Shown: positions 2 through 10,631 of the stretch, piece by piece
How the letters are laid out: every line of letters starts with the position of its first letter
Position numbering within the stretch: position 1 is the stretch's first letter
Source: Janthinobacterium sp. GW456P
GTDB taxonomy: Bacteria; Pseudomonadota; Gammaproteobacteria; Burkholderiales; Burkholderiaceae_D
Assembly: GCF_002127655.1 (NCBI RefSeq)
Contig: NZ_NEHB01000004.1
Location: 298-64,297 of the forward strand
Direction of reading: 5' to 3'
DNA: 64,000 nucleotides
Made by a program: the position numbers and the translations under genes
The notes under the pieces: model-generated
Databases searched by the model: none
The model's input: the letters and a program-made list of their open reading frames with translations, nothing else
Told to the model about the DNA's origin: nothing

Positions 2-163
2 CCGGCGAGCGAACTGGCCGCTGCACGCGCGCAGATAGCCCAGTTGCAACGCATGCTCGGCAAGAAAACGATGGAGGCGGAAATCTTGAAGGAGGCCGTC
101 GAGTTCGCTCGCGAAAAAAAGTGGATTGCGCGCTCGCCCTTGTCGGGCAAGGACGACCAGTGA
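2..163 (+). CDS. IS2-group transposase OrfA, C-terminal fragment
   Basis: This frame is open from the window edge to a TGA at 161-163. It encodes the tail of the small helix-turn-helix subunit of an IS3-family transposase. The visible part has the heptad-like coiled-coil segment ([19 protein letters not shown]) followed by the conserved [12 protein letters not shown] stretch typical of OrfA C-termini. OrfA binds the IS ends and, by frameshifting, supplies the N-terminus of the OrfAB transposase. It overlaps orfB by 43 bp in the +1 frame relative to it. The N-terminal half with the helix-turn-helix is outside the window. Confidence 0.85.
114..121 (+). promoter_or_regulatory. A7G slippery site for programmed -1 frameshift
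   Basis: Seven A residues followed by G lie just inside the orfA/orfB overlap. OrfA is read in the frame starting at base 2 and orfB in the frame starting at base 1, so a -1 slip here joins them. IS3-family elements, including IS2, use such A6G/A7G sites to make the OrfAB fusion transposase. The position and direction of slip fit; activity is inferred. Confidence 0.75.
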
Positions 164-1032
164 AGCCGGTCTGCTCTGCCCTTGGCGTAGCGCGCTCACA
201 CGTAGCCCAGCTGCTGGTTCGTCCCGCGGACTGGATCGACGGGCGCACCACTCAGACGTTCCACCAACCTGCCGACGCCATCCTGGTCGACGCCGTGCGC
301 GCCGAGATTACAGCGCTGCCGACCTATGGCTACCGCCGGGCTGGCGCTCTGGTCAACCGCACGCGAGCCTTGATGGGCCTGCCAGCAATCAATCACAAGC
401 GGTTTTATCGCGTGATGAAAGCGAACAGTCTGCTGCTACCCAAGGCGCCGAAACGCCCAGTGAGCAGCCGCGTGCACAATGGCGTGGTGGCGGTGGACGA
501 ACCCAATCAGCGCTGGTGCTCGGACGGCTTCGAGATCGCCTGCGACAACGGCGAAGTGGTGACCGGTGTGTTCATGAAGGATTGCTGTGACCGAGAAATC
601 ATTGCCTGGCGTGCGTGGGCCGAACGTGGCCTGCCTGGCGAGCCCGTGCGCGACATGCTGGTGGAAGCGGTCGAGACAAGATTCGGCCAGGCCAGCGTCG
701 GCTCGACCAGGCTGGAATTCTTGAGCGACAACGGCGGCGCCTATCGAGCGCATGAAACGCACGCGCTGGTGCGCGCACTTGGGATTGAACCGGTGCATAC
801 ACCGGTATGCAGCCCGCAGTCGAACGGCATGGCCGAGAGCTTCGTGAACACGTTTAAACGGGACTACGTGAACTTGATGGACCGCAGCAGCGCAGAAATC
901 GTTCTGGCTCAACTGCCAGACGCCTTTATGCACTTCAACGAGGTCCATCCGCATTCGTCGCTGAAATGGAAATCGCCTCGCATGTTCAGGAGAGAGCTGG
1001 CGCGCCGGGCTCAGGAAAGCGGCGCTAACTAG
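121..1032 (+). CDS. IS2-group transposase OrfB (DDE integrase core)
   Basis: This 303-residue protein is the catalytic part of an IS3-family transposase and acts on the IS ends as the OrfAB fusion. An HTH_21-like region ([14 protein letters not shown], about residues 62-80) precedes an rve integrase core. The three acidic residues of the DDE triad are visible in WCSDGFE (about 132-138), FLSDNGG (about 200-206) and NGMAESF (about 237-243), with K/R spacing typical of the group. The C-terminus has the usual [11 protein letters not shown] motif. The GTG at 121 is the first in-frame start, but the frame stays open upstream to the window edge and expression is probably by frameshift from orfA. The gene looks intact. 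Confidence 0.93.
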
Positions 1033-1185: not shown

Positions 1186-1334
1186 CGCCTTTATGCACTT
1201 CAACGAGGTCCATCCGCATTCGTCGCTGAAATGGAAATCGCCTCGCATGTTCAGGAGAGAGCTGGCGCGCCGGGCTCAGGAAAGCGGCGCTAACTAGACG
1301 ATTGGCTGTGTCTGGTTATACGGGGGCAAGATCA
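1186..1334 (+). repeat. 149-bp direct repeat, copy 2 (IS 3' remnant)
   Basis: An exact second copy of the orfB C-terminus and IS right end without the rest of the element. Its outer edge at 1334 abuts the truncated DUF932 gene, so this copy marks the insertion that broke that gene. The inner edge at 1186 is not an IS terminus, pointing to a later deletion or recombination event. Confidence 0.93.
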
Positions 1335-1566
1335 GCGGGGAGTTCGTATCGGATCGAAACAAGACCTTGTTCTCAGGGAAAGATTCGATGGAATGGATAC
1401 CGCCTACATTTCCGACCAGAAATCGAACGGGAGCCTCTCTGATTTGCCAGTTCATACCAGCCTGCTTTGCCCAAAACTCAATGGGCTCATTTACACTAAG
1501 TTGATTACCCAAACCATGCCACGGCGTTGCGCCGACGTAGGCCATTTGCTCTAAAATATGTGCCAT
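1335..1566 (-). pseudogene. DUF932 family protein, N-terminal fragment cut by IS remnant
   Basis: Read from the ATG at 1566, about 77 codons encode the N-terminus of a DUF932 protein. The opening MAHILEQMAYVGATPWHGLG fits the family pattern of an MAH start followed by a PWHGLG motif. Full members are typically several hundred residues and occur on phages, plasmids and integrative elements; their role is not known to me. At 1334 the frame runs into the IS terminus and stops after about a dozen IS-encoded residues (at 1294). The remainder of the gene is not found in the window, so this is a broken gene. The A+T-rich composition agrees with an accessory origin. Confidence 0.8.
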
Positions 1567-1700: not shown

Positions 1701-2075
1701 CTATCGGCTCTGCTCGCTAAATGGATACCCGCAAGCTAAGCAACGATAATTCTGGAGTACATTAGCGTCGACAACGTCCCCTAGTTGAGCACCTACCGCG
1801 CCCCCGGCAACACCACCAACCATGCCACCTAGAACCGCACCACATATGCCCCCGAATATGGCCCCGAGCGGGCCAGCAATTAGCCCCAGTGCAGCCCCAG
1901 CCTCTGCTCCTCCTATGGCTCCCGCCACGCCGCTGGCGGCGCCAGCAACGGTACCTACAGTGCCTCCGACTTTCCTGGCATAACCCAGCGCCAAAACGCG
2001 CGGCGACCGGCAATTTGGACAATTCAACGATACTTCATGATCGTTAAGTATTTGAACGGATTGATTATTTTTCAT
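1701..2075 (-). CDS. Small zinc-ribbon / glycine-zipper protein, unknown function
   Basis: This 124-residue protein has a CPNC pair near residues 21-24 and a CLAC pair near 112-115. Between them is a hydrophobic, Gly/Ala-rich stretch of about 75 residues with repeated GxxxG spacing (for example GTVGTVAGAASGVAGAIGG). The four cysteines could form one zinc ribbon brought together across a glycine-zipper membrane hairpin; that topology is inference. The start at 2075 is chosen because an AGAGGAA ribosome site lies 4 nt upstream; an ATG eight codons earlier lacks one. It lies 134 bp downstream of the truncated DUF932 gene on the same strand. I do not recognise a function. Confidence 0.7.
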   Translation of the reverse strand: MKNNQSVQILNDHEVSLNCPNCRSPRVLALGYARKVGGTVGTVAGAASGVAGAIGGAEAGAALGLIAGPLGAIFGGICGAVLGGMVGGVAGGAVGAQLGDVVDANVLQNYRCLACGYPFSEQSR

Positions 2076-2245
2076 GCGCTTCCTCTGTGTAAAGTTCACC
2101 GGTTGAAAGCCAAAATACTCTCAAAAACAGTGATCAATATTTAATTACACTCTAGGAATATAGGTCTGAAATTTTCTGCGATACGTAAGGATCACGTTAT
2201 CTTTTACCCAACACCATGTGTATCAAACTTTCATAAAAAATAAAG

Positions 2246-2312: not shown

Positions 2313-4115
2313 ATGCAACGACTTAATTTGGCAGATTTCAGCTTCACCCGAAGTTTTGTTTTTCTGCGTAGAAAACCCCCCCGTTTGAAATCAAGGGTCC
2401 TAAGGTCAGTGTTCAAGAAAATTTTGAAACTGAGCGAATTAGAAAATCCAGCCCCACCGATCGTTCGCTTCAAGTTACAGCTTCAAGTGGCCCCGCCGAA
2501 GTTCGGGAGCGTCTCAATGATTATTGGCGAAAGCGTCCTAGCCCCGCCATTCGCCAACGGCACTTTGCAAGAGCGTGTAATCGCTTATGTCTTACTTCTA
2601 GAGACGGAAAATTTTGCAGCACTTCAACTGCGGCACGTCAGCATGACTGACATCGAGCCTCTGTTGGAATACTACGAATGGGTCTCTCATGGGCAAATCA
2701 CGAGCGTACTTTCAGATAGCGCAAAAATCCTAAAAATTGCCGCAAAGATCATAAATCCGGCTCAGAGTGGACTAACGGGTCGCGGCTACGAAGGAAATTC
2801 TCTCCAAGACGAAATGCCACACTACGGGAGCGGGAAGACCATACCGCGCAGTCTCAAGGCAAGCGATTTAGGGGAAACGATATCTGTAACTGCTGGGGCA
2901 TCGCGAATCACCTCATATGGACAAGCCGTCAACATTGATAAAGTTGGGATCTGGTATGAACGGATATGTCAGCTTTTGCTGGCAAACAAGCAATCTATTT
3001 TTGTCTCGCGCTTTGCCGAACCCGTCGATTTCGCCGTGACTATTCCATCATTGACACCAAAATTAGTTGTGTTCGACACCCTTAGCTTTTTCACTCGCGT
3101 GAAGGATGAAGGGCTCCAGTTGAGAAGGAAATTTAAGAAAAAAGGAAGCAGGGACATCAAACGAGCGGCAGCATCTGACCAGATGTTCGAAGACGTCATC
3201 GCCGCATTGAAAACAAACGCACTTATAAAAAATAACTCTTTCCCCATCGGGTCGATCTCGGTGACAAAGAACGCGTTAAAAATTGACTTAAGTTCGTTGA
3301 AACACTTTACTTTATACAACGGAATCAAAGATATCTCTTTGTCAAGCTACATCAATAATAAAGACATGTTTTCCGTGTATTTCGACCTGCCGGACTATGT
3401 CTACATGGGGTCATCACTTTTCCGGGACCAAGGTTTACTGAGTGAAATCGACGCAGTAATCGCCAGTATTGAAGGGCACGCAGTCATGTCAACTGCGGAT
3501 CGTGAGAAAATAGACTTAAACAAGAAGACTCCTAATTTAGGGGCTAGTACGCTGACCTCTTTTCCGCCTACGTCCGTCTTCGCGATTGTTGAAAATCACT
3601 ACAACGCAGCTGACTACATCTTCTGTGATGATTTGGGCGATGAGTGGGCAGATCACATCTGTCTCGACGTCGCGACAAAAACACTGTCATTTGTTCACTC
3701 GAAGCATGGTTCTCCATCGACCAGTGCTTCCGCACTGCATGAGGTAGTTGGGCAAGCATTGAAAAACATGGGAAATCTTCTTTGCACCCCTTTAGTCTTG
3801 GGTAAAAAAGTGGATGGGTTCAATAAGATCTATATAGGCACGTTAATTCCTCGAATTCGCAAAGCACCTGCAGGCCAAGCCATACCTGCAATCAAAACCA
3901 GAGTAATGGATACGCTGAACGATAATGGCCTGCGTCGGGAAATGGTGTTAAGTTGTTCCTTCCTTTCCGAATCAGACGTTAAAGCTGAACTGCTGAAGCT
4001 ACGCGCCGGCATTAAAGTGCGACCACACATTCGGCAGCTGCTTTGGCTGCTCTCATACTTCGTCGCTGCGTCTAAAGAGCTAAGCGTTCGACCTCGCATT
4101 CTTTGCAGGCCTTGA
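2313..4115 (+). CDS. 600-residue protein with C-terminal module of defence-island helicases (nuclease-like)
   Basis: I do not recognise a named family for the whole protein. The N-terminal 150 residues are basic then mixed, without helicase Walker motifs. From about residue 185 the sequence follows a pattern I know from the C-terminal part of large helicase-like proteins of defence islands. It has SVTAGASRITSYG (191-203), then FCDDLGDEWADHI (437-449), LSFVHSKHG (458-466) and SALHEVVGQALKN (473-485), ending near VRPRILC. The E444/D447, H462-x-K464 and Q481 positions resemble a PD-(D/E)XK nuclease core, which is an inference. A GGGGGCGGA ribosome site precedes the ATG, and a strong promoter lies at 2246-2275. 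Base composition is A+T-richer than the core genome, indicating transfer. The HNH gene follows 97 bp downstream on the same strand. Confidence 0.7.
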   Translation: MQRLNLADFSFTRSFVFLRRKPPRLKSRVLRSVFKKILKLSELENPAPPIVRFKLQLQVAPPKFGSVSMIIGESVLAPPFANGTLQERVIAYVLLLETENFAALQLRHVSMTDIEPLLEYYEWVSHGQITSVLSDSAKILKIAAKIINPAQSGLTGRGYEGNSLQDEMPHYGSGKTIPRSLKASDLGETISVTAGASRITSYGQAVNIDKVGIWYERICQLLLANKQSIFVSRFAEPVDFAVTIPSLTPKLVVFDTLSFFTRVKDEGLQLRRKFKKKGSRDIKRAAASDQMFEDVIAALKTNALIKNNSFPIGSISVTKNALKIDLSSLKHFTLYNGIKDISLSSYINNKDMFSVYFDLPDYVYMGSSLFRDQGLLSEIDAVIASIEGHAVMSTADREKIDLNKKTPNLGASTLTSFPPTSVFAIVENHYNAADYIFCDDLGDEWADHICLDVATKTLSFVHSKHGSPSTSASALHEVVGQALKNMGNLLCTPLVLGKKVDGFNKIYIGTLIPRIRKAPAGQAIPAIKTRVMDTLNDNGLRREMVLSCSFLSESDVKAELLKLRAGIKVRPHIRQLLWLLSYFVAASKELSVRPRILCRP

Positions 4116-4212
4116 TCCATTCTCAACAATTCGAACCGAACACTTGCCGAGCGCTCCCTTCATTGTCTTCCAGCGGTGTATCCTCTGCACTACCTTCATC
4201 GGAGGAGCAAAA

Positions 4213-5076
4213 ATGGCGTTATACAACCTGCAAATTAAGTGGCTGAAGTCGACCGAAACAATCACTCTGGACACATTGGCGCTTCCTGAACAAGGATCGG
4301 TAATCAATACGTCAGAAGTTTGGCCGGGCAAAAATTCGCCGCTTTGCTACCAAGTCGAGGTATTGCGTGTAGCCCAGAAGGGCTCAATTTATACCTTCAT
4401 ACTTCGCTATGACGAATCCGCAAATGTCGACCTTGCTGGGGTCAACGTGGCTTGGGGGCAATCCACGGTTGTGCTTGATCTTTCGGAAGACACTCCGAGT
4501 GCGACCGCGACATGGAAGAACTGGCCAGCGGACGCTTACTACGACGGGGAGGCCGAAAGAGTGGGGGTGACCCAAGAGCCTAGCCTGCTTAGCGATCTAA
4601 TCAACATCGACTCTTCAGGGCTAACACCAACTGAAAAAGAGATCTTGGTAGCTGCACGTATAGGGCAAGGCAAATTCCGGTCGACCGTGATTTCGGCGTG
4701 GAAAATTGGAGAAGTGTGCTGCCTAACCGGCATTGACATACCTGAATTGCTGATCGCGTCACACATCAAACCTTGGTGCGAGTCCAACGATGACGAGCGC
4801 CGAGACCCTGCAAATGGACTGATACTGGCAACGCACGTTGACAAACTCTTTGACAAGCACTTGTTGAGTTTCAAGCCGAGGGAAGACGATTATGTAGTTG
4901 TGCTGAGCCCAAGAGTGCGAGCAGTAGCTGAGGAACTTGGGATAAATAACGCGAAAACAATCAACGCGAAAAGGCTAGGCTCAGCCGAAAGCCACTTCAG
5001 CGCTTACATGCAGGGACACCATAAGCGATTTCTGGAGAAGGTCATCAATGACGGTTTCCCTCAGCCCCCTCTATGA
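4213..5076 (+). CDS. HNH endonuclease (HNH_2 type)
   Basis: The 287-residue protein has an uncharacterised N-terminal domain of about 125 residues and a C-terminal HNH nuclease domain. The domain shows RIGQGKFR (149-156), CCLTG (169-173), ASHIKPW (182-188, H184), RRDPANGL (196-203, N201) and THVDKLFD (207-214). These match the HNH_2 pattern of restriction-type nucleases that cut DNA with one metal ion. The start at 4213 is preceded by GGAGGA at 4200-4205; frames upstream to 4144 lack a good ribosome site. It probably shares a transcript with the preceding 600-residue gene, since no clear promoter is visible in the 97-bp gap. Likely role: DNA-cutting effector of a defence or restriction unit (inference). 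Confidence 0.85.
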   Translation: MALYNLQIKWLKSTETITLDTLALPEQGSVINTSEVWPGKNSPLCYQVEVLRVAQKGSIYTFILRYDESANVDLAGVNVAWGQSTVVLDLSEDTPSATATWKNWPADAYYDGEAERVGVTQEPSLLSDLINIDSSGLTPTEKEILVAARIGQGKFRSTVISAWKIGEVCCLTGIDIPELLIASHIKPWCESNDDERRDPANGLILATHVDKLFDKHLLSFKPREDDYVVVLSPRVRAVAEELGINNAKTINAKRLGSAESHFSAYMQGHHKRFLEKVINDGFPQPPL

Positions 5077-5336: not shown

Positions 5337-5412
5337 TGGTGCGGCTGGCGGGGATCGAACCCACGACCCTTGGCTTCGGAGGCCAATACTCTATCCACTG
5401 AGCTACAGCCGC
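5337..5412 (-). tRNA. tRNA-Arg (anticodon CCG)
   Basis: The reverse strand folds into a full cloverleaf. The acceptor stem is GCGGCTG/CAGCCGC, the anticodon stem TTGGC/GCCAA has the loop CTCCGAA (anticodon CCG), and the T arm has TTCGATC. The CCA end is encoded at 5339-5337. The 3' end faces the accessory region to the left, the usual arrangement when an island has integrated at a tRNA 3' end. Confidence 0.95.
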
Positions 5413-6309: not shown

Positions 6310-8385
6310 TTACCACATGATGACGCGGTCTTTTGGCGGCAGATACATCTTGTCGCCCGGTTTCACGTCGAAGGCTTGATAGAAGCCTGGCTGGTTGCGC
6401 ATGGTGCCGTTGGCGCGGAACTGGCCTGGCGAGTGCGGGTCCGTTTTCAGCAAGACCAGTTGCTGCGCTTCGCGCATCTTCATGCGCCATACCTGGGCAA
6501 AGCCCGCATAGAAGCGCTGCTCGCCCGTGAAACCGTCGATGACGGGGGCTTGCTTGCCGTTCAGCGACAATTTGTACGCTTTGTACGCAATCGCCACACC
6601 GGAATTGTCGGCGATGTTCTCGCCCAGGGTCAGTTCGCCGTTGACGAAGTGGCCTTTGACGGGGCTGAAGCTGTTGTACTGCGCCACCAGCTGCTTGGTT
6701 TTCTTGGCGAAGTTCTTATGGTCAGCCTTGGTCCACCAGTCGCGCAAGTTGCCGTCGCCGTCGTACTGGGCGCCCTGGTCGTCGAAGCCGTGGCTGATTT
6801 CATGCCCTATCACGCCGCCGATGGCGCCGTAGTTCACGGCGTCGTCCGCCTTGGCATCGAAGAACGGCGCTTGCAGGATGGCGGCCGGGAAGACGATTTC
6901 ATTCAGTTCCGGGTTGTAATAGGCGTTCACGGTCTGTGGCGTCATGCCCCACTCATCGCGGTCGATGGGCTGGCCCAGCTTGTTCAATTCGCGGTTGTAA
7001 TTGAGCAGGTGCGAACGCTGGATGTTGCCGATCAAATCATCGGGTGCCACCGTCAGGCCCGAGTAATCGCGCCATTTGTTCGGATAGCCGATCTTGGTGG
7101 TGAACTTGGCCAGCTTGATTTGTGCCTGTTTCTTGGTGACGGGACTCATCCAGTCGAGCTTGTCGATACTTTGCTTGTACGCCGTCATCAGGTTTTTCAC
7201 CAGCGCTTCCATGCGCACCTTGCGCTCGGCCGGGAAATATTGCTCGACGTACAGCTGGCCCACGGCTTCGCCCAGCGCGCCTTCGACGGCGCCCACGCCG
7301 CGTTTCCAGCGTGGACGCATTTCCGTCACGCCCGTCAGGGTGGTGCCATAGAACGCGAAGTTTTCATCGACATACGCTTTCGGCAGGTAGCCGGCGTTGG
7401 CGTGCAACAAGTGCCATTGGAAATAGGCTTTCCACGTTTCCAGCGGCGTCTTGTTGGCGATCTCGGCAAATCCCTTCAGGTAGCTGGGCTGGCTGACGAT
7501 CACGTAATTGACCTTGCCGGCGATGCCCGTATCCTTCAGGTAACGGGCCCAGTCGTAACCTGGCGCCACGGCGGCCAGTTTTGCCAGTTCCACCTTGTTG
7601 TAGGTCTTGACGGGATCGCGGTTCTGCACGTTGCTCCATTGCGCCTTGGCCAGTTCCGTTTCCAGCGCCAGGATGGCCTTGGCATTCGCGGCCGCGTTCG
7701 CATCACCGGCCAGGCTCAGCATTTTTTCCACGTGGGCCAGGTATTTGGCGCGGGTGTCAGCCTTGCCTTCTTCCAGGTAGTAATCGCGGTCAGGCAGACC
7801 CAGGCCGCTTTGCACGATGTCGGCCACGTATTTGGTGGAATCCTTGGCGTCCTGGTGGATGCCGAAATCGTAAGGCGAAGTCACGCCCAGCTTGCTGAAA
7901 TGGGCGATCACGGCAGGCAACTCCGCCTTGTCCTGCAGCGCGGCGATCTTCGCCAGTTCCGCGTTCAGGGGCGTCAGGCCCAGGCTTTCCAGCTTGGCTT
8001 CGTCCATGAAGCTGTTATAGAAATCGCCGATTTTCTGCGCATTCGAACCGGCCGCACGGGCCTTGTCGGCGGCAGCGCCTTCGACGATGCCGCGCAGCTG
8101 CGTTTGCGTATCGTCGGCCAGCTTGGCAAAACTGCCCCAGCTCGACTTGTCGGCAGGAATCACGGTTTCCGCCAGCCATTTGCCATTCAGGTGCTGGAAC
8201 AAATCGTCCTGCGCGCGCACGGCAGGGTCGACGTATTCGACGGCGATGCCGGACGTCAGGGCGGCGGCCGCGACGGCCGTGGCGGGAGCGGCGGCGGCTT
8301 TCTTGGCAGAATCAGCGGCGCCAGCCATGCCGGACACGCCGGCCAGCAAACTCAGGGTCAATGCACTTAACAAATAACGATTCAC
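6310..8385 (-). CDS. M13-family zinc metallopeptidase (neprilysin/PepO-like)
   Basis: The 691-residue protein has a Sec signal peptide (about 1-23, ending GMAGA). An M13 N-terminal helical domain is followed by a thermolysin-like catalytic domain. The HExxH zinc site is in VIGHEISHGFDD near residue 530, the third ligand in ENIADNSG near 595, and a conserved C-terminal PGDKMYLPPKDRVIMW ends in the family's aromatic residue. M13 enzymes are secreted or periplasmic oligopeptidases. Length agrees with bacterial members. A close paralogue lies immediately upstream on the same strand, indicating tandem duplication. Each copy has its own terminator, so they are probably separate transcripts. Confidence 0.93.
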   Translation of the reverse strand: MNRYLLSALTLSLLAGVSGMAGAADSAKKAAAAPATAVAAAALTSGIAVEYVDPAVRAQDDLFQHLNGKWLAETVIPADKSSWGSFAKLADDTQTQLRGIVEGAAADKARAAGSNAQKIGDFYNSFMDEAKLESLGLTPLNAELAKIAALQDKAELPAVIAHFSKLGVTSPYDFGIHQDAKDSTKYVADIVQSGLGLPDRDYYLEEGKADTRAKYLAHVEKMLSLAGDANAAANAKAILALETELAKAQWSNVQNRDPVKTYNKVELAKLAAVAPGYDWARYLKDTGIAGKVNYVIVSQPSYLKGFAEIANKTPLETWKAYFQWHLLHANAGYLPKAYVDENFAFYGTTLTGVTEMRPRWKRGVGAVEGALGEAVGQLYVEQYFPAERKVRMEALVKNLMTAYKQSIDKLDWMSPVTKKQAQIKLAKFTTKIGYPNKWRDYSGLTVAPDDLIGNIQRSHLLNYNRELNKLGQPIDRDEWGMTPQTVNAYYNPELNEIVFPAAILQAPFFDAKADDAVNYGAIGGVIGHEISHGFDDQGAQYDGDGNLRDWWTKADHKNFAKKTKQLVAQYNSFSPVKGHFVNGELTLGENIADNSGVAIAYKAYKLSLNGKQAPVIDGFTGEQRFYAGFAQVWRMKMREAQQLVLLKTDPHSPGQFRANGTMRNQPGFYQAFDVKPGDKMYLPPKDRVIMW

Positions 8386-8502
8386 GGTTGTCCTCTATAT
8401 TGTATTGTGTGGAATATAAGGGTCAGAAGGCCCAGGGCTTCTGGCCCGGTTTTTGACTGTAGCATACCGGCCGAAATGACAGAAAGAACTTTGGCCGGAA
8501 TG

Positions 8503-8528
8503 CAAAAAAGACCACGCGAAGTGGTCTT
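8503..8528 (-). terminator. Rho-independent terminator of the second M13 peptidase gene
   Basis: An AAGACCAC/GTGGTCTT stem with a five-base loop is followed on the minus strand by a T run (A run at 8503-8508). It lies 40 bp past the stop at 8568. The plus-strand side also has TTTT, so it may act in both directions. Confidence 0.85.
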
Positions 8529-8567
8529 TTCTGTTGTTACAGGATTACGTTTTCATCAAGACCGCGC

Positions 8568-10631
8568 TTACCAGATGATCACGCGGTTTTCCGGGGCGAC
8601 ATACATCTTGTCGCCCGGTTTCACGCCAAACGCTTCGTAGAAGCCCGGCTGGTTGACCATGGTGCCATTCGCGCGGTACTGGCCCGGCGAATGCGGGTCG
8701 GTCTTGATCTGCACGATCTGCTGCGCTTCGCGCATCTTGCTGCGCCACACCTGGCCAAAGCCCATGTAGAAGCGCTGGTCGCCCGTCAAGCCATCGAGCA
8801 CGGGCGCCGGCTTGCCGCCCAGCGAGATTTTATACGCCTTGTACGCGATCGCCACGCCCGAGTTGTCGGCGATGTTTTCGCCCAGGGTCAGCGCGCCGTT
8901 GACGTGGTAGCCCGGCAATGGGCTGTAGCCGTCGTACTGCTTGGTCAGCGCATCGGCCTTGGCAGCGAAGTTCTTGCGGTCGGCCGGGGTCCACCAGTCG
9001 CGCAGGTTGCCGTCGCCATCGGACTGGCTGCCCTTGTCATCGAAGCCATGGCTGATTTCATGGCCGATGACGGCGCCGATGGCGCCATAGTTGACGGCAT
9101 CGTCCGCGTTGGCATCAAAAAACGGCGGCTGCAGGATGGAGGCCGGGAAGACGATTTCATTCATCGTCGAGCTGTAATAAGCGTTCACCGTTTGCGGCGT
9201 CATGCCCCACTCTTCGCGGTCGATCGGTTTACCGAGCTTGGCCACCTGGCGCGCGGAACCGAAATTGGCGGCGCGCATCATGTTGCCCACCAGGTCGCCC
9301 TGCACGATTTGCAGCTTCGTGTAATCGCGCCATTTGTTCGGATACGCGATTTTCGGCGTGAACTTGGCCAGCTTGGCTTGCGCTTCCTTCTTGGTTTCCG
9401 GGCTCATCCAGTCCAAGGTATCGATGCTGTCCTTGTAGGCGGCCAGCACGTTTTTCACCAGTTCCTGCATGTGCGCCTTGCGCTCCGCCGGGAAATATTG
9501 TGCGACATACAGCTTACCGACGGCTTCGCCCAGCACGCCTTCGACGGCGCCCACGCCACGCTTCCAGCGCGGCTGGTTTTCCGTCACGCCGCTCAATACC
9601 GTGCCGTAGAAAGCAAAGCTCTCGTCGACGAAGTTTTTCGACAGGTAGCTGGCGTAGCTGCGCAGCAACTGCCATTCGAAATACGCTTTCAAGGTGTCCA
9701 GGTCGGCGGCGGCCAGCACCTTGTTGTAGCCGGCCAGGTAGCTCGGCTGGTTGACGATGACGTAATCGACCTTGTTGGCGATGCCCAGCGCGGCCAGGCC
9801 CGACTTCAGGTCGTAGCCCGGGGTCAGGTCGTTCAGTTTATTGATGTCGGTCTTGTTGTAGCGTTTGACGGGGTCGCGGTTCTCGACCTTGGTCCATTGC
9901 ACTTCGGCCAGCGAAGTTTCCAGGGCAACCACGGCCTTGGCGCGCGCGGCGGCGTTCTTGTCGCCCGCCATGGCCAGCATCTTTTCCACGTGCGCCTGGT
10001 ATTTTTCCTTCACGCCAGCCTGCTTGGCTTCCAGGTAGTAGTCGCGGTCGGGCATGCCCAGGCCGCTTTGGCTCACATACGCCGCATATTTGGTCGAGGC
10101 ACGCGCATCCTGGCCCACGTAGACGGCGTACGGGGTCGACACGCCCGTCTGACTCAGGTGGGCGATCAGGGCGGGCACGCCCTTCTTGTCGCGCAGCGAG
10201 CGGATGCGGTTCAGTTCGCCTGCCAGCGGCTTCGTGCCCAGCGCTTCGAGCTTGGCTTCATCCATGTAGCTGGCGTACAGGTCGCTGATTCTCTGCGCTT
10301 CGGAACCGGCCTTCTTGTGCTTGTCCTGTTGCGTGGCTTCGATGATGCCGCGCAATTGCGGCGTCGTGTCGTCGCGCAGCTTGGCGAACGAACCCCAGCT
10401 CGATTTGTCGGCAGGAATCTCGGCCGTGGCCAGCCATTTGCCGTTCAAATGGGTAAAGAAATCGTCCTGCACGCGCACGGCGGGGTCGATGTACTGCACA
10501 TCGATGCCGGAAACGACGCCGGCGGCGGCAGGCGCCACGGTCGGGGCGGCCACGGCGGCGGCGGGTTCGGCGGCGTGGGCAAATGCAGCCAACAGGGTCA
10601 GGGTCAGGCTGCTCAAGAGATATCGGTTCAC
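8568..10631 (-). CDS. M13-family zinc metallopeptidase, tandem paralogue
   Basis: The 687-residue protein begins with a signal peptide (about 1-20, ending AFAHA) and an Ala/Pro-rich linker. The M13 N-terminal domain and catalytic domain follow. GHEISHGFDDKG near residue 524 supplies the zinc site, and ENIADNSG near 587 the third ligand. Most of the length aligns with the neighbour at 6310-8385 at high identity, including the closing PGDKMYVAPENRVIIW. The N-terminal domains differ more than the catalytic ones, suggesting different peptide preference (inference). All catalytic residues are kept in both copies. Confidence 0.93.
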   Translation of the reverse strand: MNRYLLSSLTLTLLAAFAHAAEPAAAVAAPTVAPAAAGVVSGIDVQYIDPAVRVQDDFFTHLNGKWLATAEIPADKSSWGSFAKLRDDTTPQLRGIIEATQQDKHKKAGSEAQRISDLYASYMDEAKLEALGTKPLAGELNRIRSLRDKKGVPALIAHLSQTGVSTPYAVYVGQDARASTKYAAYVSQSGLGMPDRDYYLEAKQAGVKEKYQAHVEKMLAMAGDKNAAARAKAVVALETSLAEVQWTKVENRDPVKRYNKTDINKLNDLTPGYDLKSGLAALGIANKVDYVIVNQPSYLAGYNKVLAAADLDTLKAYFEWQLLRSYASYLSKNFVDESFAFYGTVLSGVTENQPRWKRGVGAVEGVLGEAVGKLYVAQYFPAERKAHMQELVKNVLAAYKDSIDTLDWMSPETKKEAQAKLAKFTPKIAYPNKWRDYTKLQIVQGDLVGNMMRAANFGSARQVAKLGKPIDREEWGMTPQTVNAYYSSTMNEIVFPASILQPPFFDANADDAVNYGAIGAVIGHEISHGFDDKGSQSDGDGNLRDWWTPADRKNFAAKADALTKQYDGYSPLPGYHVNGALTLGENIADNSGVAIAYKAYKISLGGKPAPVLDGLTGDQRFYMGFGQVWRSKMREAQQIVQIKTDPHSPGQYRANGTMVNQPGFYEAFGVKPGDKMYVAPENRVIIW

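Follow-up and report, generated by a model that had tools for sequence, protein, structure and literature searches.

A PDC-S71 defence candidate and a VcaM4I-type HNH endonuclease as probable independent cargo of a tRNA-Arg island in Janthinobacterium

Two described systems are closest to the genes considered here. Hachiman is a helicase-restrained nuclease and its HamA protein carries an E138-x-K140 motif (PMC12278908). VcaM4I, an EVE-HNH modification-dependent endonuclease, consists of a reader (residues 1-147), a linker helix (148-178) and an HNH domain (179-309), with active-site residues H224, N241, D250 and D254, of which N241 is structural (PMC7897488). The locus analysed here lies in a 64,000-nucleotide stretch of the Janthinobacterium sp. 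GW456P genome (C34:298-64297, where C34 is contig NZ_NEHB01000004.1), below called the window. It comprises a gene for a 600-amino acid (aa) protein, assigned below to the PADLOC family PDC-S71 (gene 1), followed by a gene for an HNH endonuclease (gene 2). The original prediction joined them into one probably undescribed defence-type unit of two different nuclease-type proteins, on the same strand and 97 bp apart, in A+T-richer DNA between an insertion sequence (IS) and a tRNA-Arg gene. The setting was described correctly: both open reading frames (ORFs), the IS transposase ORF and the tRNA are present, the GC content of gene 1 is 0.47 versus 0.62 for the whole window, and two different nuclease-type proteins in a defence-type context is right. 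The 97-bp gap follows from the start assigned to gene 2; its ORF (4144-5076, + strand) gives 310 aa from a TTG, and the ATG at 4213, preceded by GGAGGA, is most likely the start.

With a probability of about 0.62, we consider that the two genes protect against phage independently and merely travel as cargo of the same integrative island in tRNA-Arg, gene 1 being a single-gene system with a PD-(D/E)XK-like HxK nuclease and gene 2 a separate modification-dependent HNH endonuclease. The two-gene unit was set aside as the main reading since the pair did not recur in the loci examined. A profile of the HNH subfamily detected no relative among ORFs within 8 kb of 13 other PDC-S71 genes (less at short loci, L002 and L063 being short contigs), the best expect values (E) being 0.77 and 0.81. 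Conversely, PDC-S71 was found in 0 of 25 loci with relatives of gene 2, among ORFs of at least 200 aa; these were 24 genome loci with only about 1.5-kb flanks and the viral contig L062. The HNH subfamily is, moreover, common by itself: 35 of 145 genomes of the family (this one included) carry it, with varied N-terminal parts. On these data a genuine two-gene system restricted to this lineage is unlikely; in it the PDC-S71 protein would sense or hold DNA with the HNH protein as second effector, or the reverse. The two genes do share a strand and lie close together. A consensus scan found no promoter-like or terminator-like site on the + strand between them, which suits a two-gene system; neither was there such a site just upstream of gene 1, and the totals were at chance (6 promoter-like sites versus 4.5 expected, 2 terminator-like versus 4.4). 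The same reading can draw on unrelated HNH proteins located by a rough motif scan near 2 of the 13 PDC-S71 genes. At L018 this is the SAVED-HNH effector of a CBASS (cyclic-oligonucleotide-based anti-phage signalling system); The scan can miss other HNH kinds, as it did with a further HNH-type protein that PADLOC identifies at this locus. At L061 it is a 78-aa piece (PADLOC mREase_IV) after a degraded stretch, on the same strand and ~780 bp downstream.

The product of gene 1 matched the PADLOC PDC-S71 model PDLC05077 with an E of 1.6e-103 (residues 65-600, model positions 58-589 of 589), and by this match it is a member of PDC-S71, a single-gene defence candidate. The word "undescribed" in the original prediction thus held only in part: the protein is already a PADLOC candidate, and PDC-S71 is not named in the literature searched, nor was anything on the 600-aa protein found in literature on PDC families and on RdgC-type or stand-alone nuclease defence. 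Besides the window protein there are 13 relatives of 584-626 aa, in the same length class and with the same core, at 21-30% identity to it in our alignments (A1, A2). Twelve extend over essentially the whole model; that of L015 covers positions 1-525 of 594 and diverges thereafter. The first 57 PADLOC model positions are unmatched by the window protein, though A2 aligns its N-terminus. PDC-S71 stands as a single gene in that the 13 other loci have differing neighbours, none of them with a relative of gene 2.

Near-whole-model matches are rare. They were found in 5 of 398 phylum genomes (own genome included), in 3 of 369 class genomes (own, G339 again and G710) and in two other families, where 3 of 150 and 3 of 149 genomes matched, one of them already known in either count. 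Further ones came from one Acinetobacter record, one Thioclava record, one Erysipelotrichaceae contig and one viral contig. Within the family of this genome, matches came from 6 of 294 genomes, near-full-length in this genome only and otherwise partial, mainly to the C-terminal module. Gene 1 had no match in 14 control genomes or in phage records, nor any at the DNA level in E. coli genomes.

The gene 1 product is predicted to consist of an N-terminal beta-rich region of ~390 residues and a putative PD-(D/E)XK-like core, with an extension at the C-terminus. Alignment identified the invariant core as D440-x3-E444-x2-D447 ... H462-x-K464 ... Q481. The pattern D-x3-E-x2-D-[FHY] ... H-x-K ... Q is present in 23 of 23 proteins, the window protein and helicase-fused forms included; as it was written from those 23 sequences, this count measures conservation and is no independent test. 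In the loci examined it matches 30 of 811 distinct ORFs of at least 200 aa, a count into which the relatives and truncated copies of them in overlapping loci enter. In the AlphaFold2 model (mean predicted local distance difference test score, pLDDT, 80.7; predicted template modelling score 0.62) we assign the order helix 422-429, strand 434-437, strand 448-452, strand 457-464 and helix 472-489, carrying D440, E444, D447, H462 and K464, and this predicted order fits a PD-(D/E)XK-like nuclease, whose core is alpha-beta-beta-beta-alpha with acidic residues and an x-x-K on its third strand.

For the N-terminal region a structural lead is RdgC, a recombination-associated protein that forms a ring-shaped DNA binder. 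A Foldseek search of viral models (BFVD) gave a phage RdgC model as the top match of the gene 1 model (E 3.2e-4, probability 1.00). This single likeness comes with low template modelling scores (0.24/0.31) and a high root-mean-square deviation (15.5), and profiles do not support it: hhalign against 11 RdgC sequences gave a probability of 0.5% for the full alignment and at most 1.1% for sub-regions, and PF04381 (RdgC) matched neither the gene 1 product nor the PDC-S71 members scanned. The solved RdgC structures 2owl and 2owy were not among the best 50 of 520 PDB matches in Foldseek. The genome holds a separate RdgC at C6:133833-134717. An RdgC-like fold of the N-terminal region may be kept as a lead. 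Sequence searches of the PDB with the A1 and A2 profiles gave nothing up to E 10, and a search with the single sequence gave one chance-level match (E 0.53). Argonaute matches in the PDB Foldseek search (probability 0.01-0.02) were set aside.

The nuclease-like module had been recognised in the original prediction as one known from helicases, and the C-terminal ~170 residues of the gene 1 product are indeed shared with helicases of ~1000 aa. In all five large helicases examined (L020, L021, L022, L067, L068) the N-terminal part, which the window protein lacks, carries superfamily 2 (SF2) helicase domains, and all five have the nuclease core. The A2 profile, built from 12 PDC-S71 members with the window protein among them, reaches well beyond this module in three: it matched L020 (1182 aa) at model positions 143-593, L067 (1112 aa) at 59-547 and L068 (1004 aa) at 56-260 and 392-591, with domain E of about 4e-7 to 8e-17, so that the preceding region is partly shared as well. 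Three more proteins of ~600 aa (L023, L024, L069) and the 250-aa L025 have only the core region in common. Because three of the five helicases match so far upstream, PDC-S71 looks like the rear half of a large SF2 defence helicase-nuclease, existing without the helicase. In the mechanism we propose, the beta-rich region would hold or sense DNA and restrain the HxK nuclease until infection, upon which the PD-(D/E)XK-like domain would cut DNA. It is a rather unlikely further step that PDC-S71 is a stand-alone clamp-nuclease, in which an RdgC-like fold of the N-terminal ~390 residues holds the DNA and the HxK domain cuts it, doing the job of a helicase-nuclease without ATP, the helicase-fused relatives then being the same clamp-nuclease with a motor. 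As a pair the two genes are ordinary. Their value lies in PDC-S71 as the helicase-free half and in the possible RdgC-like N-terminal fold; what is new is the placing of this architecture with its core residues named, and together with the 13 helicase-free relatives this makes the function of an uncharacterised candidate directly testable.

Hachiman HamA (DUF1837) would resemble this protein in its metal-type nuclease core and its association with a helicase, and HamA-HamB adjoins one PDC-S71 relative. HamA differs in carrying E138-x-K140 instead of H-x-K, and in having its helicase partner as a separate protein; the window has no helicase-sized ORF beside gene 1. Homology with HamA was not supported, at an hhalign probability of 0.2% (one HamA sequence compared), and PF08878, the HamA domain, matched none of 12 PDC-S71 members scanned. 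A PF08878 search of 56 genomes gave no match in them or in the controls, which makes it uninformative on absence.

The gene 2 product matched Pfam HNH_2 (E 7.2e-13), and VcaM4I (PDB 6yex) is its nearest solved protein by sequence (E 1.6e-19) and first in Foldseek (E 1.1e-7). Its predicted layout is an all-beta N-terminal part of ~118 residues, helices at 123-133 and 139-163, and the HNH domain. Counted along the sequence alignment, H184, N201, D210 and D214 align with VcaM4I H224, N241, D250 and D254, and they are invariant in 13 aligned sequences (gene 2 and 12 relatives chosen from 24 fetched). By these shared positions, helical linker and HNH domain we classify it as a VcaM4I-type modular endonuclease. 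The N-terminal domain differs: it is unmatched to the EVE/PUA readers or any other family, Pfam included, and among 398 genomes residues 1-116 had no match outside this one, nor any in the plasmid collection. In the model the block-mean pLDDT over residues 1-120 is 28-52. No match of an HNH relative starts before about residue 105, and the N-terminal parts of the relatives differ widely; that of L049 looks, to our reading, cytosine methylase-like. Gene 2 would add an unusual N-terminal domain to the modular endonuclease scaffold. In a type IV-like manner, this domain would act as reader of a DNA modification or feature, and the protein, with an inhibitory helical linker and a dimerising HNH domain as in VcaM4I, would cut the DNA so recognised.

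Both genes lie next to the tRNA-Arg, at the distal end of an island whose other border probably lies on a second contig of the same genome. A 58-base copy of the tRNA-Arg end (94.8% identity) is present at C13:94454-94511. The order on C13 after the integrase is a YagK/YfjJ-like protein, a resolvase, a NotI-family restriction enzyme, a C-5 cytosine methylase and the 3′ part of a DUF932 gene (Pfam DUF932, E 7.2e-20); the 5′ piece in the window had no Pfam match alone. A stretch of 255 identical bp is shared by the C13 end and the C34 start, and because of this overlap and of what read as two parts of one DUF932 gene the contigs were joined. The island is thus inferred to extend over about 16 kb, between C13:94454 and the tRNA at C34:5709. 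Its integrase, together with the repeated tRNA 3′ end at the opposite border, marks it as an integrative island. In the same inferred island the restriction enzyme and the methylase genes are convergent (L089:16728-19232). That the locus has no methylase, as had been stated, is therefore correct inside the window and wrong for the island, both enzymes being encoded beyond the window. Because the island carries that C-5 methylase, the reader of gene 2 should ignore its methylation pattern, as the island would otherwise damage its own host.

Several observations weigh against the reading of independent cargo with a nuclease in gene 1. The gene pair in the window could be co-transcribed. The PADLOC listing of PDC-S71 may itself be neighbourhood-based, in which case the evidence from context is partly circular. 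Genes named in PADLOC lie next to 6 of the 13 relatives or a few kb away (among ORFs chosen for testing), which is in favour of the reading, but 7 of the 13 have no PADLOC-named intact neighbour in the ORFs tested; these counts have no random-locus baseline. No ORF was tested at L014 and L016, and one each at L002, L017, L019 and L066; the single ORFs of L002, L017 and L066 gave no PADLOC match and that of L019 a weak match to LeoBC (E 9.6e-7). On visual inspection, the genes at L014, L016 and L019 seem to have inserted singly. In two of the five helicases (L021, L022) only positions ~420-591 are significant, with insignificant traces upstream. Pfam and NCBIfam searches of the gene 1 product gave no family, and Foldseek matched its model to no solved structure at E<=0.001. 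Second in the latter list, and the one nuclease noted there, is CdiA-CT (4g6u; probability 0.72, E 0.19, matched part of the model unreported), a toxin nuclease of the PD-(D/E)XK-like kind.

The CdiA-CT match and the HxK in place of the usual D/ExK would also suit a PDC-S71 protein that acts on RNA (tRNase-like), or uses its fold otherwise, and leads to abortive infection with no cutting of DNA; this is distinctly unlikely, since the match is weak and the helicase-fused relatives resemble DNA-acting SF2 enzymes. Very unlikely is a non-functional remnant of a helicase-nuclease that has lost its helicase, as the alignment to the C-terminal half of helicases and the patchy carriage (near-full-length in one of 294 family genomes) might suggest, given that the 13 relatives of shared architecture (L015 diverging after 525) keep the core at such low identity and that the genome matches have no internal stops.

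The features of the window, of the island and of the related loci are collected in Table 1. Two of the neighbourhoods are observations in their own right. On a Thioclava plasmid (L015:5921-11182) the Lamassu genes LmuA-LmuC-LmuB are followed by PDC-S71, whose C-terminus diverges beside an IS3 transposase. At L064:9126-14289 a Hachiman locus borders PDC-S71, the genes HamA, HamB and PDC-S71 following one another on the same strand.

Table 1. Features of the window (window coordinates unless a locus is named), of the joined island and of related loci
Feature	Location	Strand	Remarks
Gene 1, 600-aa PDC-S71 protein	2313..4115	+	ATG start; PADLOC PDLC05077, alignments A1/A2, AlphaFold2 model
Gene 1 invariant core codons, residues 440-482	3630..3758	+	23/23 proteins; invariant columns in 12-sequence A2
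Gene 2, HNH endonuclease, 287 aa, VcaM4I type	4213..5076	+	HNH_2, 6yex, GGAGGA-N5-ATG
tRNA-Arg(CCG), intact attachment-site end of island	5337..5412	-	
IS transposase ORF	121..1032	+	Pfam rve, rve_3, weak HTH_21
DUF932 gene, 5′ part, read as IS-interrupted	1294..1566	-	contig-end overlap with C13
132-aa small protein	1701..2099	-	sub-threshold glycine-zipper and zinc-ribbon matches
Integrase	L089:10108-11568 (C13)		beside 58-base tRNA copy
PbeA/PbeC (Pbe/Dnd-like) and methylase	L028		beside PDC-S71
CBASS	L018		beside PDC-S71
LmuA, LmuC, LmuB	L015		upstream of PDC-S71
HamA and HamB	L064		upstream of PDC-S71
AbiD	L063		upstream of PDC-S71
PDC-S06; MukB-like and weakly JetD-like gene	L065		on one side and on the other side of PDC-S71
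Integrase	L066		near PDC-S71
Phage sheath and tail-fibre (contractile-tail) genes	L061, viral contig		PDC-S71 between them, then a degraded stretch and the 78-aa HNH piece (L061:4984-7811)
NsnA/GmrSD-like gene and HEPN neighbour	G136		at tRNA-Arg
PDC-M59A	G1320		at tRNA-Arg
PDC-M31A/B	G244		at tRNA-Arg
Type III methylase and SNF2-type helicase	G250		at tRNA-Arg

The same tRNA gene was compared across the genus. The gene that follows tRNA-Arg, read as TonB-receptor-like, is only ~430 bp away in congener G256 and ~330 bp in G1318, so that the site is empty; in G267, G221 and G048 the gap is 1.4-4 kb. In 6 of 21 genus genomes (G136, G1320, G244, G250, G1315, G190) the contig carries the tRNA end once more, at a distance of roughly 5-20 kb. 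ORFs tested in four of these (G136, G1320, G244, G250) include other defence genes (Table 1). The tRNA-Arg(CCG) gene looks like a small integration hot spot for defence cargo in the genus.

Two minor observations concern other parts of the window. The IS transposase, presumably IS3-type from its domain set, is accompanied by a 70-nt exact direct repeat (1000-1069 and 1265-1334), by which the right end of the IS is duplicated with a small insert between the copies. On the minus strand, positions 6310-10631 hold two adjacent similar metallopeptidase genes, which we assume to be M13-type and which are apparently tandem duplicates.

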